Source of the DNA: Daejeonella sp.
GTDB taxonomy: Bacteria; Bacteroidota; Bacteroidia; Sphingobacteriales; Sphingobacteriaceae
DNA: 52,946 nt
NCBI RefSeq assembly: GCF_030695525.1
Contig: NZ_JAUYSS010000042.1
Location: forward strand, 1-52,946
Direction of reading: 5' to 3'
The position numbers and the translations under genes were made by a program. Position 1 is the first letter of the stretch; each line of letters starts with the position of its first letter. Shown here piece after piece: positions 14,557 through 27,384 of this stretch. The notes below the pieces were generated by a model. It was not told the origin of the DNA and ran no database searches. It was given only the letters and a program-made list of their open reading frames with translations.

Positions 14557-15063
14557 TTGCGATATTTCAGTGCTTTGAAAAACGAGAACATTAAGCCAAA
14601 AATATTCAGCAGAGAACAGGCTAAACTGAAAGCTGAAAGCTATTGCGCCTACCAGGAAAGGTCGCAGTATGAGGTCAGGAACAAACTTTACGAATGGGGT
14701 TTGCATCAAAAAGATGTAGAGGAGATCATTTCTGAGCTTATTGATCAGAATTTCCTGAATGAAGAGCGTTTTTCGATAGCCTATACAATGGGTAAGTTCA
14801 GAATCAAGGGCTGGGGCAAATTGAAGATCAAACAGGGTTTAAAATTAAAACAGGTTCCTGATAAGATGATCCAGAAAGCACTTAAAAGCATTGATGAAGG
14901 CGATTATTTAATGAGTTTAAGGCAGATCCTTGAGAAGAAATCGAATCTTCTATCAGAGAAAGACCCTTTTAAGCGCCGCTATTTGTTGAGCAGATATGCA
15001 ATGAGTAAAGGTTATGAACAGGACTTGATCTCAGAACTGCTGATAAACAAGAGTTTAGAATAA
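14557..15063 (+). CDS. recX: RecX family regulatory protein
   Basis: This is a helical regulator of RecA, usually an inhibitor of RecA filament extension. The protein has up to 168 residues. The RecX three-helix repeats are visible: SQYEVRNKLYEWG, VEEIISELIDQNFLNEERF and the hallmark FRIKGWGKLKIKQGLK. No ATG is available in the N-terminal region. The frame can begin with TTG at 14557 or TTG at 14575, and no clear ribosome binding site decides between them. The gene lies divergent from murF-alr and is followed by tRNA-Gly. Confidence 0.88.
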   Translation: MRYFSALKNENIKPKIFSREQAKLKAESYCAYQERSQYEVRNKLYEWGLHQKDVEEIISELIDQNFLNEERFSIAYTMGKFRIKGWGKLKIKQGLKLKQVPDKMIQKALKSIDEGDYLMSLRQILEKKSNLLSEKDPFKRRYLLSRYAMSKGYEQDLISELLINKSLE

Positions 15064-15087
15064 TTATTTAAAAAAATTAAAAAATAC

Positions 15088-15117
15088 TTGCCAAAATTGC
15101 TTTTCTGCCTATATTTG
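15088..15117 (+). promoter_or_regulatory. Bacteroidota-type promoter of tRNA-Gly
   Basis: TTG at 15088-15090 and TATATTTG at 15110-15117 are separated by exactly 19 nt. This fits the Bacteroidota housekeeping promoter consensus (TTTG, 19-21 nt, TAnnTTTG). The tRNA begins 35 nt after the -7 element. Confidence 0.8.
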
Positions 15118-15151
15118 TGCCGCAGTATTCCTCCGGAACACTCACCCAAAC

Positions 15152-15227
<76 letters not shown>

Positions 15228-15236
15228 ATATGAAAC

Positions 15237-15260
15237 TCCCTCCTAACAGAGGGAATTTTT
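15237..15260 (+). terminator. Terminator after tRNA-Gly
   Basis: TCCCTC (15237-15242) pairs with GAGGGA (15249-15254), followed by ATTTTTG. This is a short hairpin with a T-rich tail, suited to ending the tRNA-Gly transcript. Confidence 0.6.
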
Positions 15261-15277
15261 GTTTGAAATAGTAATAA

Positions 15278-15326
15278 CCATCTGCTCGGATGGTGGATCC
15301 CGATAGCTATCGGGAGGTAGACACGC
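15278..15326 (+). pseudogene. Partial tRNA-Leu copy interrupted by an 18-bp palindrome
   Basis: CCATCTGCTCGGATGGTGGA (15278-15297) is identical to the leader and 5' end of the intact tRNA-Leu (15354-15373). The copy then carries the perfect palindrome TCCCGATAGCTATCGGGA (15298-15315) where the true gene has ACT in the D loop. It resumes tRNA sequence with GGTAGACACGC (15316-15326). After that the similarity stops, and there is no anticodon arm, T arm or 3' acceptor strand. It cannot form a functional tRNA. Confidence 0.8.
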
Positions 15327-15359
15327 CAATTGGATTGTTAGAGCAAATTATAGCCATCT

Positions 15360-15445
15360 GCTCGGATGGTGGAACTGGTAGACACGCAGGACTTAAAATC
15401 CTGTTCGCCCTAAAGCGAGTGCGGGTTCGATTCCCGCTCCGAGTA
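15360..15445 (+). tRNA. tRNA-Leu (UAA)
   Basis: This is an 86-nt class II tRNA. Acceptor GCTCGGA pairs with TCCGAGT (G-U at the first pair). The anticodon stem CAGGA/TCCTG encloses the loop CTTAAAA (15392-15398) with anticodon TAA at 15394-15396. A long variable arm and the T-arm GCGGG-TTCGATT-CCCGC follow. The discriminator is A15445, as expected for leucine. The CCA end is not encoded, unlike in the neighbouring tRNA-Gly. Confidence 0.96.
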
Positions 15446-15446
15446 C

Positions 15447-15480
15447 AAAAGCTCTTTGGAAACAAAGGGCTTTTGTTTTT
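15447..15480 (+). terminator. Terminator after tRNA-Leu
   Basis: AAAAGCTCTTTG (15447-15458) pairs with CAAAGGGCTTTT (15463-15474) with one mismatch, followed by GTTTTT. A diverged version of the same terminator follows the degenerate tRNA-Leu copy at 15875-15904. Confidence 0.8.
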
Positions 15481-15554
15481 AATATACCTACCGTTTAATA
15501 AGCAGATTTGATTCCTTCCATAATTCTTTCCTAGATTCCTGAAAATTATTTTTC

Positions 15555-15839
15555 ATGTTTTCCACCTATATCTTACAATCTCAAAAAAGCGGCAGATACT
15601 ATATTGGGCATACAGAAAATATTCCGAAAAGATTGCTCAGGCATAATAATGGCCAAGTAACTGCAACTAGAAATAAAGGTCCATGGGTTTTAGTGTATTT
15701 CGAAAATTTCAATTCCAGGATAGAAGCCAATCAAAGAGAGCTTGAAATAAAATCCATGAAAAGCAAAATTTATATCGAAAAATTGATTGCTGATGGTGGA
15801 AGGTTAAGCATGTCCGATAAAAATTGGGGTTCACTCTAA
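15555..15839 (+). CDS. GIY-YIG nuclease family protein (UPF0213 type), inside a tRNA-Leu duplication
   Basis: This is a compact single-domain GIY-YIG endonuclease of 94 residues. The core motif is present as TYILQS and YYIGHT (residues 4-19). The catalytic arginine lies in KRLLRHNNG and the metal-binding glutamate in IEANQRELEIK. There is no additional DNA-binding domain. The ATG at 15555 is the only sensible start. It lies about 75 nt after the tRNA-Leu terminator. The last 15 or so codons (from 15792) coincide with a degenerate tRNA-Leu copy, and the stop codon falls in the sequence CTAAAGCGAGT that matches the tRNA variable arm. The biological role of stand-alone GIY-YIG proteins is unknown; association with tRNA copies suggests a selfish or repair-linked nuclease. 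Confidence 0.88.
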   Translation: MFSTYILQSQKSGRYYIGHTENIPKRLLRHNNGQVTATRNKGPWVLVYFENFNSRIEANQRELEIKSMKSKIYIEKLIADGGRLSMSDKNWGSL

Positions 15840-15873
15840 AGCGAGTACCCCGATTAGTTCGGGGCTCCGAGTA
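15789..15873 (+). pseudogene. Degenerate tRNA-Leu copy with T arm replaced by a palindrome
   Basis: GATGGTGGAA (15792-15801), CTAAAGCGAGT (15836-15846) and GCTCCGAGTACAAAAGC (15864-15880) are identical to the intact tRNA-Leu and its 3' flank, in the same order and near-identical spacing. The anticodon arm is degraded. The T arm is replaced by CCCCGATTAGTTCGGGG (15848-15864), an inverted repeat with 6-bp arms. The first half overlaps the 3' end of the GIY-YIG gene. It cannot act as a tRNA because the T loop is gone. Confidence 0.72.
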
Positions 15874-15874
15874 C

Positions 15875-15904
15875 AAAAGCCCGATATGAAAATATTGGGC
15901 TTTT
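15875..15904 (+). terminator. Terminator after the degenerate tRNA-Leu copy
   Basis: AAAAGCCCGATA (15875-15886) pairs with TATTGGGCTTTT (15893-15904) with one mismatch, giving a 12-bp stem. It is a diverged homologue of the terminator of the intact tRNA-Leu and would end the GIY-YIG transcript. Confidence 0.75.
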
Positions 15905-16035
15905 GTGTTCTATACGTTTTTGCAAGGATCGTATTATTTACGTTTAAAATTTAAAGCTCATGAGTAACCTTTAAATGGTTAATCTTGTTTTACCAAAGTT
16001 TTGAAAGTTTTAACATGCATCTCTTATCTTTGTGT

Positions 16036-16263
16036 ATGGAAGAACCATTTGATATTTTTATAGGATCAGCAACCTATTCCGTATTTCCGGAAGAAGATCA
16101 TACGTTTACTGTTTTCAAAGAAGGCAAAGAATATATCCACATTCAAAAGGATACAGAAGGCGTATGGTTGAAACTCGATTATGAAACTGACCTTCCAATT
16201 TTTGATGAAGATCCTGAGGTAAATGATATTGGTCGCCAGATAAATTTACACCAGGCTGATTAG
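16036..16263 (+). CDS. Small uncharacterised acidic protein
   Basis: This is a 75-residue protein from the ATG at 16036 (MEEPFDIFIGSATYSVFPEE). I do not recognise a characterised family. It is acidic, has alternating hydrophobic and polar residues suggesting a small beta-rich fold, and has no signal peptide or membrane segment. The frame extends upstream to 15985, but the promoter-like TATCTTTG at 16025-16032 (with TTG at 16001-16003) lies just before the ATG at 16036, so the shorter form is preferred. If that promoter is real the mRNA would be nearly leaderless. A bidirectional terminator follows. Confidence 0.65.
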   Translation: MEEPFDIFIGSATYSVFPEEDHTFTVFKEGKEYIHIQKDTEGVWLKLDYETDLPIFDEDPEVNDIGRQINLHQAD

Positions 16264-16310
16264 TTTTATCACTAATTGTTAAAAGACAATAAATGAACCC
16301 TTATAATAAT

Positions 16311-16342
16311 AAAGGCCGCTCCGGAATCCTGAGCGGCCTTTT
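16311..16342. terminator. Bidirectional terminator
   Basis: AAAGGCCGCTC (16311-16321) pairs with GAGCGGCCTTT (16331-16341) and both ends carry A or T runs. It serves the small gene on the plus strand and the hsp20 gene on the minus strand. Confidence 0.85.
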
Positions 16343-16360
16343 GAGTAGACAGGAGATAAA

Positions 16361-16801
16361 TTATTTCAACTCAATTAAACGTGATGTACTTTTAGCTTCC
16401 TCACGTTTACCGATATCGAGTTTAAGTATTCCGTTTTCATAGCATGCTTCGATCATATTAAGATCGGCCTGCTCCGGAAGATTAAAGGACCTGACAAAGG
16501 ATGTAAAGCTATATTCACGACGGGTATAGCGTTTACCTTCTGAACTGTGTTCTTCATTATCCTGATAGGAAATATTCAGAATTTGCCCCTCTACATTAAT
16601 TTTAAAACACTCCTTTTTTAATCCGGGAGCAGCCATTTCTACATGGTAGAAGTCGGCACTCTCACTTGTGTTCACAGCAGGCAGCGAGCCGGAAACCCTT
16701 TCACTGAAAAAGGTGTCATTAAAAATTGATTCGAAAACATCATTAAAGCCTGGCAATAATGATCTGCTTCCATTGTTGTTGTTAAATTTAACCAGCGTCA
16801 T
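16361..16801 (-). CDS. Hsp20/alpha-crystallin family small heat shock protein
   Basis: This is a small heat shock protein that forms oligomers and holds unfolding proteins in the cytoplasm. The protein has 146 residues. The alpha-crystallin domain spans about residues 42-140, with ADFYHVEMAAPGLKKECFKI at its start (quoted in part: AAPGLKKE), the strand region YTRREYSFTSFVRSF, and AGILKL-like ending (here ENGILKLDIGKRE). The N-terminal phrase LLPGFNDVFESIFND is typical of Bacteroidota Hsp20. The gene is monocistronic. Confidence 0.93.
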   Translation of the reverse strand: MTLVKFNNNNGSRSLLPGFNDVFESIFNDTFFSERVSGSLPAVNTSESADFYHVEMAAPGLKKECFKINVEGQILNISYQDNEEHSSEGKRYTRREYSFTSFVRSFNLPEQADLNMIEACYENGILKLDIGKREEAKSTSRLIELK

Positions 16802-25680: not shown

Positions 25681-27384
25681 ATGGCTTATTTAAAAATATT
25701 CCTGGTCTTCTGTTTTGCACAGGCCATGATCCTCAATACAGGAGCACAAACAATCAATGATTATCCGGTGGATAAAAAAACAATTGAGGAAGGAAAATCT
25801 TTATTTACCCAGAACTGCAGTTCATGCCATAGCTTTACACAGCGAGGTATTGGTCCGGATTTATCCGGGGTTACTACTGAGCTAACAAAGCCTGCGCTCC
25901 TACGCTTTATTCGCAATTCACAGAGTGTTATTGAAGGTGGAAACCCCCGTGGGATTAAATTGCTGCAGGAGTATAAAGTCCCAATGCCTTCGTTCGAAGC
26001 CCTTAGTAATGATCAGATGCTGTCGGTATTAGCTTATATCAATACATTTAAGGTAAAAATCGAAACATCGACTGAAAAATTCGGGCCTGTATTGAATGAT
26101 CCAATCCCCGAAAAGATTAAAAAATCAGGATTAACTCTTGAACTGGAGGAAGTATTAACAGCAAATCCAACTGCCGATAAAATACCATTGGCCAGAATAA
26201 ATCAAATGCGGATTTTACCCGGCAAAAAGGAACGCAGCTTTATTGAAGATCTGAGAGGTAAATTATATGAGTTAAAAGGCAGGGAATTGTTTGAAGTTAT
26301 GGACATTAGCAAACAAAGACCCGCCTTTATTTCAGTACCCGGCTATGCTACTGGTTTTGGAAGTTTTGCATTCCATCCCAAATTCTATAAGAATGGTCTA
26401 TTCTATACGATACATTCTGAAAAGGCCCGCTCGGCTCCTTCAGATTTCGCATATGCTGACTCAATTCCTGTTCTCATACAATGTGTTCTCACAGAATGGA
26501 AAATAAATGAGCCAAAATCAGGAAAGTTTGAGGGTAAAAGCAGAGAACTTTTGCGAATTGACATGCCGACAGTAATTCATAGTATGCAGGAAATTGTCTT
26601 TAATCCGCTCTCCCGGCCCAAAGATCCAGATTATGGCTTGTTATACCTTACAATGGGTGACGGAGGTTCGGCTGAAGCCGGGTTTTCTTTCCTATGCAAT
26701 ACAAACACTCAAATCAGGGCTTCGGTTTTACGAATAGACCCTCAGGGAAACAATAGCATGAACGGGAAGTATGGCATTCCTTCTATTAATCCATTTGCCA
26801 GCGACAATGATGATAAAACTCTTGGAGAGGTATTTGCTAGAGGTTTCCGAAATCCAAACAGAGTAGCCTGGACACCTGATGGGAAAATGCTGATTTCCGA
26901 TATTGGCTTAAACAGTGTTGAAGAACTCAACCTGATCGAGGCGGGAGCTGATTATGGCTGGCCACAGCGGGAAGGGACATTTTTCCTGAATAATAAAGGT
27001 AAAATGAATAAGGTTTATGCCTTACAGCCTGATGAACCGAACTTTAAATTTGTTTATCCCCTAGCTCAATTTGATCACGATGAAGGGAATGCAATATCCG
27101 GAGGTTATGTTTATGAAGGCAATATTGAACAGCTAAAGAACAAATATATTTTTGGTGATATAACCACCGGGAGAGTTTTTTACATTAATAATGAAGATAT
27201 TAAATCAGGCAAGTCAGCTCAGATTCTGGAATTTGACTTATTATTTAACGGAGTTCCGTCTACCTTCAGAGACATCACCGCCAGCCGCAGGGCTGACCTT
27301 CGTTTTGGTTTAGGAGCTAATAAACAATTTTATCTGTTTACTAAAACTGATGGGAAAATCTGGAAAGTGGCGGGATGTAAGTGA
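25681..27384 (+). CDS. Cytochrome c domain fused to glucose/sorbosone dehydrogenase-like propeller
   Basis: This is an exported redox enzyme of 567 residues. A signal peptide of about 22 residues precedes a class I cytochrome c domain with the haem motif CSSCH (46-50) and a probable axial methionine M102 in VPMPSF. A six-bladed propeller of the glucose/sorbosone dehydrogenase type follows (residues about 160-565), with GFGSFAFHPKF, LYLTMGDGG and EVFARGFRNPNRVAWTPDG (in part). The likely cofactor is PQQ, passing electrons to the fused haem. It is 5 nt after the DUF6807 gene and ends the operon, implying oxidation of a sugar in the periplasm. Confidence 0.88.
   Translation: MAYLKIFLVFCFAQAMILNTGAQTINDYPVDKKTIEEGKSLFTQNCSSCHSFTQRGIGPDLSGVTTELTKPALLRFIRNSQSVIEGGNPRGIKLLQEYKVPMPSFEALSNDQMLSVLAYINTFKVKIETSTEKFGPVLNDPIPEKIKKSGLTLELEEVLTANPTADKIPLARINQMRILPGKKERSFIEDLRGKLYELKGRELFEVMDISKQRPAFISVPGYATGFGSFAFHPKFYKNGLFYTIHSEKARSAPSDFAYADSIPVLIQCVLTEWKINEPKSGKFEGKSRELLRIDMPTVIHSMQEIVFNPLSRPKDPDYGLLYLTMGDGGSAEAGFSFLCNTNTQIRASVLRIDPQGNNSMNGKYGIPSINPFASDNDDKTLGEVFARGFRNPNRVAWTPDGKMLISDIGLNSVEELNLIEAGADYGWPQREGTFFLNNKGKMNKVYALQPDEPNFKFVYPLAQFDHDEGNAISGGYVYEGNIEQLKNKYIFGDITTGRVFYINNEDIKSGKSAQILEFDLLFNGVPSTFRDITASRRADLRFGLGANKQFYLFTKTDGKIWKVAGCK

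Follow-up and report, generated by a model that had tools for sequence, protein, structure and literature searches.

Free-standing homing endonucleases are known in phages and organelles, and tRNA-targeted integrative elements are bounded on both sides by direct repeats of tRNA sequence. SegB of phages T4 and T6 is a free-standing GIY-YIG homing endonuclease encoded within a tRNA cluster (PMC13096335, PMC2988022). For T6 SegB, cuts inside tRNA genes have been reported, with a motif RAWTSGAAC, as has a role in driving tandem amplification that yields 718-bp repeats of tRNA-Tyr plus segB (PMC13096335); the 5' end of the tRNA and the 3' end of segB are also described as sharing microhomology (PMC13096335, PMC2988022). 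From its letters, we read the motif as the reverse complement of the T-loop. In fungal mitochondria, mORFs such as those in atp6 of Allomyces and Glomus are reported to arrive with a substitute for the end of the gene they invade (PMC3630166).

Here we analysed a window, meaning the whole stretch of 52,946 nucleotides of Daejeonella sp. DNA, in which a small GIY-YIG nuclease gene lies between copies of a tRNA-Leu gene. As with SegB, a GIY-YIG nuclease is found beside tRNA genes, and tandem repeats of tRNA plus nuclease occur in its family. Unlike SegB, the family resides in bacterial chromosomes at housekeeping tRNA genes, its proteins of about 80–100 aa consist of the catalytic domain only, its flanks are broken, palindrome-bearing copies of the same tRNA, and each lineage keeps to one isoacceptor, whereas the SegB paper reports no favoured isotype. 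With mORFs it shares an endonuclease gene in an essential gene, where a duplicate end is reported to join the working gene and the native end to be displaced (PMC3630166); mORFs, as described there, enter protein-coding mitochondrial genes and are mostly LAGLIDADG, whereas the present unit concerns tRNA genes, is far smaller, and forms arrays and carries palindromes. It differs from tRNA-targeted integrative elements in having no integrase-sized ORF, in being shorter than 0.5 kb and in containing nearly whole tRNA copies. A full-text literature search, which covered few subscription papers and no preprints, found no report of a bacterial chromosomal GIY-YIG/tRNA cassette. We think that the unit is probably a site-faithful, minimal selfish cassette dedicated to one tRNA isoacceptor, in which a free-standing homing-type nuclease sits between copies of its target tRNA.

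The tRNA-Leu locus and its nuclease

A sequence-only reading of this DNA had described an intact tRNA-Leu(UAA) with its terminator, followed by a GIY-YIG gene, a decayed tRNA-Leu and a second terminator, and this order was confirmed (Table 1). The same reading had placed direct repeats about 426 bp apart around the nuclease gene. The spacing holds (GCTCCGAGTACAAAAGC, 17/17 matches at an offset of 428; GTTCGCCCTAAAGCGAGT, 16/18 at an offset of 426), but the description of the repeats as 3' halves does not, as the downstream relic spans tRNA positions 6–87. Its alignment runs on into the terminator, with 74 identities in 111 positions and a score of 66 versus 26 for the best of 40 shuffles. The nuclease gene was correctly said to end within tRNA-like sequence: its final codons and TAA stop lie there, the TAA belonging to the CTCTAAAGCGAGT of the 3' relic. 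A second partial tRNA-Leu copy, a 5' part upstream of the intact gene, had been missed. It belongs to a 76-bp upstream unit that, among five aligned relatives, is missing in L170 and L175 and found in L172, L173 and L178 (loci carry L numbers and genomes G numbers). In L172, a terminator near-identical to terminator 2 lies directly 3' of the intact tRNA-Leu, without a nuclease gene.

Table 1. Features of the tRNA-Leu locus, in window positions
Feature	Position	Strand	Basis and remarks
tRNA-Gly(gcc)	15152..15227	+	ARAGORN; upstream neighbour; tRNA-Gly–tRNA-Leu order kept in relatives
76-bp upstream unit (leader end, tRNA-Leu 5' relic, spacer)	15275..15350	+	Alignment
tRNA-Leu 5' relic (acceptor strand and D arm), palindrome-broken	15284..15326	+	Direct repeat; ends set by eye
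Palindrome TCCCGATAGCTATCGGGA	15298..15315	.	In D loop of tRNA-Leu 5' relic
Intact tRNA-Leu(UAA)	15360 to 15445/15446	+	ARAGORN (taa anticodon); 59.3 bits in Rfam
Terminator 1	15447..15479	+	Directly 3' of intact tRNA-Leu; close likeness in L170, L173
GIY-YIG nuclease gene, 94 aa	15555..15839	+	ORF list; Pfam PF01541
tRNA-Leu 3' relic (tRNA positions 6–87)	15792..15873	+	Overlaps nuclease gene end
Palindrome CCCCGATTAGTTCGGGG	15848..15864	.	Replaces T arm of tRNA-Leu 3' relic
Terminator 2	15875..15906	+	Inverted repeat

The intact tRNA-Leu(UAA) is uninterrupted. It is the sole match found in this genome assembly (98% complete), and because of this the window's cassette could hardly be lost whole. 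We rejected a group I intron, as an Rfam search (E ≤ 1) of positions 14800–16500 returned no intron family and the intact tRNA is unbroken; matches to two sRNA families within the unit were ignored, being far under their gathering scores.

The nuclease matches PF01541 with an E value of 4.4e-15 and 56.2 bits against a cut-off of 22.6. No Pfam domain besides GIY-YIG was found in the window protein, which, with regard to target choice, we count against a selfish cassette. Residues Y5, Y16, R26, H30 and E62 are invariant across 22 aligned members and are presumably the catalytic Tyr, Tyr, Arg, His and Glu, with roles as in I-TevI. The ratio dN/dS was 0.04–0.17 in 11 of the 12 between-locus pairs with defined dS; the twelfth, L030–L061, gave 0.44 on just 9 differences, and in nine further pairs dS was saturated and thus undefined. 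Copies within arrays, for example at L157 and L044, are likewise under purifying selection. The low ratios indicate that the protein is maintained by selection, and they rule out a pseudogene. By profile, the closest solved structures are the UPF0213 proteins 1zg2 (E 1.4e-13) and 1ywl (5.3e-13) in the PDB, which we take to be YhbQ-like, together with SLX1 (4.9e-08), annotated as a structure-specific endonuclease subunit; we know of no tRNA link for UPF0213 GIY-YIG proteins. The window protein had no PHROG or NCBIfam match at E 0.01. Matches to phrog_314 'homing endonuclease' were obtained for 12 of the 22 members (best 3.4e-6), and matches to TIGR01453 'group I intron endonuclease' for 13 (best 4e-7).

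A nuclease family at tRNA genes

We assembled 146 distinct family loci, the best-scoring places among the matches listed, with weaker places left out (90 from the window's family, 29 from a Bacteroidota-wide search and 37 from a further search, less 10 duplicates among the 156 fetched). A locus counted as tRNA-linked if any of its family ORFs lay within 500 bp of a same-strand tRNA gene; L163 qualified through a second ORF, other than the one that retrieved it. By this measure 133 of the 146 loci were tRNA-linked, and an opposite-strand tRNA was found at 0 of 146. When the other 13 were compared with 136 intact tRNA sequences, 11 showed a same-strand remnant at the nuclease gene, which was a relic except for a few tRNAs truncated where the contig stops (scores 37.5–119 versus shuffled maxima of up to 32.5). 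The same comparison found no tRNA sequence near L011 and L151. The Leu-type nuclease gene of L011 (G143:C110:21420-21659) has no adjoining relic, although its contig carries a tRNA-Leu match 4.4 kb away (26065–26149).

Chance adjacency was rejected. Genes for tRNA are sparse, since scoring 150 of 318 candidates gave 33 matches across the 4.2-Mb genome, and control GIY-YIG loci had a tRNA at 0 of 29 within the fetched stretch of about 1.5 kb on each side. The controls came from 61 of the same genomes and were the 30 best loci of a second small GIY-YIG protein encoded in the window's genome; one of them, L227, proved to belong to the tRNA-linked family and was left out. With a tRNA gene at 133 of 146 loci, and at 144 once remnants are included, the minimal unit of GIY-YIG nuclease and tRNA gene suggested from the sequence is strongly supported. 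The association proved general, and neither of the two outcomes named as counting against that suggestion, an arrangement shared by all relatives or a lack of tRNA association, was observed.

The window protein has matches in 82 of the 151 genomes of its taxonomic family (E 0.001, a count that includes a repeat-associated sister family), and a tRNA-linked copy was confirmed in at least 59. Across Bacteroidota, 252 of 395 genomes had matches, again with the sister family included; the window's own genome had 5 in this search, 1 of them tRNA-linked. In the Bacteroidota-wide sample (L104–L132), 26 of 29 loci had a same-strand tRNA and the other three (L105, L119 and L126) a remnant. Family loci have named twins in Pedobacter polaris, P. 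montanisoli, P. cryophilus and P. arcticus. Outside Bacteroidota, a tRNA gene for Ala, Ile, Pro, Gln, Ser, Thr, Arg or Glu adjoins 15 of 17 distinct loci. The records bear the names Armatimonadetes, Fimbriimonas, Parcubacteria, Kerfeldbacteria, Moraniibacteriota, Kazan, Omnitrophota, Victivallis, Verrucomicrobiota, Kiritimatiellales, Pontiellaceae, Calditrichaeota, Dehalococcoidia and one unplaced bacterium; since all of these records are metagenome-assembled, individual cases may be binning errors. We rejected carriage by phages: a set of 50,697 phage records gave one partial match (43% identity), and viral contigs yielded one relative, at a contig end, with no tRNA found.

In a typical unit, the single-domain nuclease gene has beside it one intact and one truncated tRNA copy on its own strand, the truncated one often broken by a palindrome. 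Two layouts recur. In layout A, that of the window, the order is tRNA, terminator, nuclease and 3' relic, the last followed by a second terminator, and 5' relics are often found upstream as well; the tRNAs of this layout are mostly Leu, Val, Asp, Asn, Met, Ala, Thr and half of Arg-cct. In layout B, a leader and 5' relic precede the nuclease, which is followed by the intact tRNA; here we found most Ser, Pro, Gln and Arg-acg units and the other half of Arg-cct. The 5' relics usually stop around the T arm and the 3' relics usually begin around the D arm, with wide scatter. Some units form tandem arrays, with 8 nuclease ORFs at L038 (7 of them in register at 358 bp), 4 at L041 and 3 each at L039 and L040. 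Within the tRNA-Val/GIY-YIG array of L038, a 1.03-kb insertion with inverted ends ACCTGAGTTCGATTA ... TAATCGAACTCAGGT (1683–2716, reverse-complement orientation) is probably an insertion sequence. Upstream of the cassette of L130, six tRNA-Gly/tRNA-Asp genes follow one another at an even 101-bp spacing (499–1078, reverse-complement orientation).

Each of the two broken tRNA-Leu copies in the window contains a palindrome. The 16-nt core of the upstream one, CCCGATAGCTATCGGG (window 15299–15314), has 22 exact copies in the 4.2-Mb genome, and a reversed control pattern has 0. In 220 relics, with tandem copies counted separately, a hairpin with arms of at least 5 bp was present in 91 of 137 insertions of 6 nt or more versus 10 of 137 after shuffling. 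Palindrome sequences vary between species; at L039 and L088, an identical palindrome occupies the same position in both the 5' and the 3' relic. Confinement to tRNA loops was unconvincing, with 52 of 83 palindromes at or beside a loop or junction. Of the 22 copies of CCCGATAGCTATCGGG, 7 have flanking direct repeats of at least 6 nt versus 9 of 440 random pairs, as if they had been inserted with target duplication, although these flanks are often of low complexity; for that reason we did not accept the palindrome as a transposing unit. REP/RAYT systems are defined by a Y1 (HUH) transposase tied to palindromes. A sister group of GIY-YIG genes of about 100 aa (L001–L004 of the window's own genome and L200–L222) lies amid REP-like repeats such as TTCCAGCGAAGGCTGGAATCTCC and does not adjoin tRNA genes. 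Repeated bases numbered 17–1221 in each of the 23 loci L200–L222, and there were none in six remoter relatives (L223–L226, L228 and L229). It is possible that the sister-group nuclease is tied to palindromic repeats in a RAYT-like manner.

Orthologous sites and isoacceptor fidelity

The sequence-only reading had called for a search for empty orthologous sites, and sites without the unit do exist, at the Leu, Ser and Val loci alike; at each, alleles with and without the nuclease gene were found at the same place. Of the 17 genomes of the window's genus with a match, 11 were compared at the tRNA-Gly–tRNA-Leu locus, which showed seven states. The site is empty in L171, L174, L175 and L176 and holds a 5' relic alone in L178 and L181. 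L172 has a 5' relic and a terminator resembling terminator 2 of the window, with the nuclease absent; L173 has both relics, with the nuclease gone; L170 has the nuclease without a 5' relic, at a contig end; L177 has several relics and a decayed nuclease; and the window is the seventh state. The intact tRNA-Leu is identical between carriers and non-carriers of the genus, a result that we count against a selfish cassette.

At the Ser(gct) locus, the upstream anchor was found in 17 of the 18 genomes of the G113 genus. Upstream of the tRNA, a cassette is open in G097, G113 and G084, decayed in G108 and missing in 13. What separates G097 from G018 is a 354-bp segment placed exactly where the tRNA begins; over the 95 nt that lead up to the tRNA, the two are identical. 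G018 has probably lost its Ser cassette by recombination; loss is the simpler reading because G113 and G084 also carry the cassette. The AGAGG allele of the tRNA-Ser D-loop was present in 7 of 17 genomes, including 4 carriers (one decayed), whereas the AGTGG allele was present in 10, with 0 carriers (Fisher p 0.015, in one post hoc test that ignores relatedness). Such a link is expected if the tRNA travels with the cassette. For the Val array, 14 of 18 genomes have the anchor gene, and in four of them it adjoins tRNA-Val. Of these four, G113 carries the array, G084 a single relic and no nuclease, G018 nothing and G108 its own nuclease ORFs. Loss explains the empty Ser and Val sites of G018 as well as or better than gain, and among the loci compared we identified no recent gain of a cassette, nor did we come upon a recent transfer between distant hosts. 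The arrays and clean losses look like the products of homologous recombination between tRNA copies.

We mapped tRNA isoacceptors onto a tree of 134 nuclease domains, built from 77 columns with incomplete domains dropped and many weak forks, in which L036 and L046 are one place. The isoacceptor changed 37 times over the 118 rows with a label, and none of 300 shuffles was as low (mean 89, minimum 83). Within the window's family, 19 isoacceptor states over 77 rows required 18 changes, the least possible, and genus on the same rows required 40 (shuffled mean 50, minimum 44). Some of the labels look like relics misread by ARAGORN (Ile-tat, Phe-aaa and Tyr-ata among Val types), and some Leu-type rows carry the label of the neighbouring tRNA-Gly. 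Agreement between tRNA type and nuclease tree would also be expected from vertical descent at fixed loci. As a side observation, apparent relics at L019, L027, L047 and L053 were called tRNAs with odd anticodons (tat, aaa, ata or 'Stop') by ARAGORN, and the automatic annotations of these genomes may contain false tRNAs.

A proposed selfish cassette and its alternatives

By analogy with homing endonucleases, we infer cleavage and movement of the cassette. The nuclease would cut cassette-free tRNA genes of its own isoacceptor, and the break would be repaired from a cassette-bearing copy, with the tRNA copies serving as homology arms. The resident tRNA gene would become a relic and the cassette's tRNA the functional copy, indispensable to the cell; recombination between the same tRNA repeats would delete or multiply the nuclease. 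A more far-reaching version is tentative, and we regard it as doubtful: an undescribed, phylum-crossing class that takes its host hostage, in which the nuclease breaks the resident tRNA gene, repair installs a cassette that brings a tRNA gene of its own and palindromes seal the cut sites. Palindromic insertions at former cut sites would then make the relics uncuttable, with the working tRNA carried in the cassette, and the palindromes would record where the nuclease cut.

We consider it unlikely that the nuclease is instead a resident, non-selfish host gene, passed on vertically at each locus, whose role is the upkeep of tRNA genes, perhaps through gene conversion or amplification of tRNA copies. 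The purifying selection on the nuclease, the stable tie between lineage and isoacceptor, the promoter-like region shared by nuclease and intact tRNA in layout B, the existence of arrays and the clean absences that look like losses would all suit such a gene. However, just 82 of the 151 family genomes have matches (E 0.001) and 59 a confirmed tRNA-linked copy, close relatives include decayed and absent states, and the arrays multiply broken tRNAs together with the nuclease. It is also quite improbable that the nuclease belongs to a tRNA-cleaving toxin or another RNA-level system, acting on tRNA with the broken copies as decoys or regulators. The tie of each nuclease lineage to one isoacceptor is consistent with that idea, and the 5' relic of the Ser locus would be transcribed, given a TTTGCA motif, presumably promoter-like, upstream of it; but the relics lack a T arm or acceptor half and vary widely, loss of the nuclease only is seen, and the GIY-YIG enzymes known to us cut DNA. 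Scars of ordinary integrase-based islands, with the repeats as attL/attR and the nuclease as passenger DNA, are highly improbable even though tRNA 3' ends are classic integration sites and direct repeats of the tRNA 3' end are present, since between the repeats the nuclease gene is accompanied only by overlapping ORFs no longer than 55 aa, the relics often extend to the D arm with copies of leader or terminator, layout B duplicates the 5' part, and the same nuclease recurs by tRNA genes at 133 of 146 loci. The sequence-only reading was right, judged by ORF size, that the unit has no integrase, the nuclease being the largest ORF between the repeats, but its likeness to attL/attR falls with the lack of any integrase-sized ORF and with the nature of the repeats, which are copies of a tRNA gene, one intact and the others palindrome-broken; on the anatomy of the unit (ORFs, repeats and relic alignment), we rejected integrase att sites.

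If the units are indeed selfish cassettes dedicated to one isoacceptor, this chromosomal family at essential tRNA genes, present in several phyla besides Bacteroidota, would rank with the smallest selfish elements known to be autonomous. The tRNA pseudogenes of these genomes, and their tandem tRNA-like repeats, would find an explanation, and the units may supply site-specific nucleases against many tRNA genes. The cassette permits a direct test of how a selfish gene locks onto an essential RNA gene.
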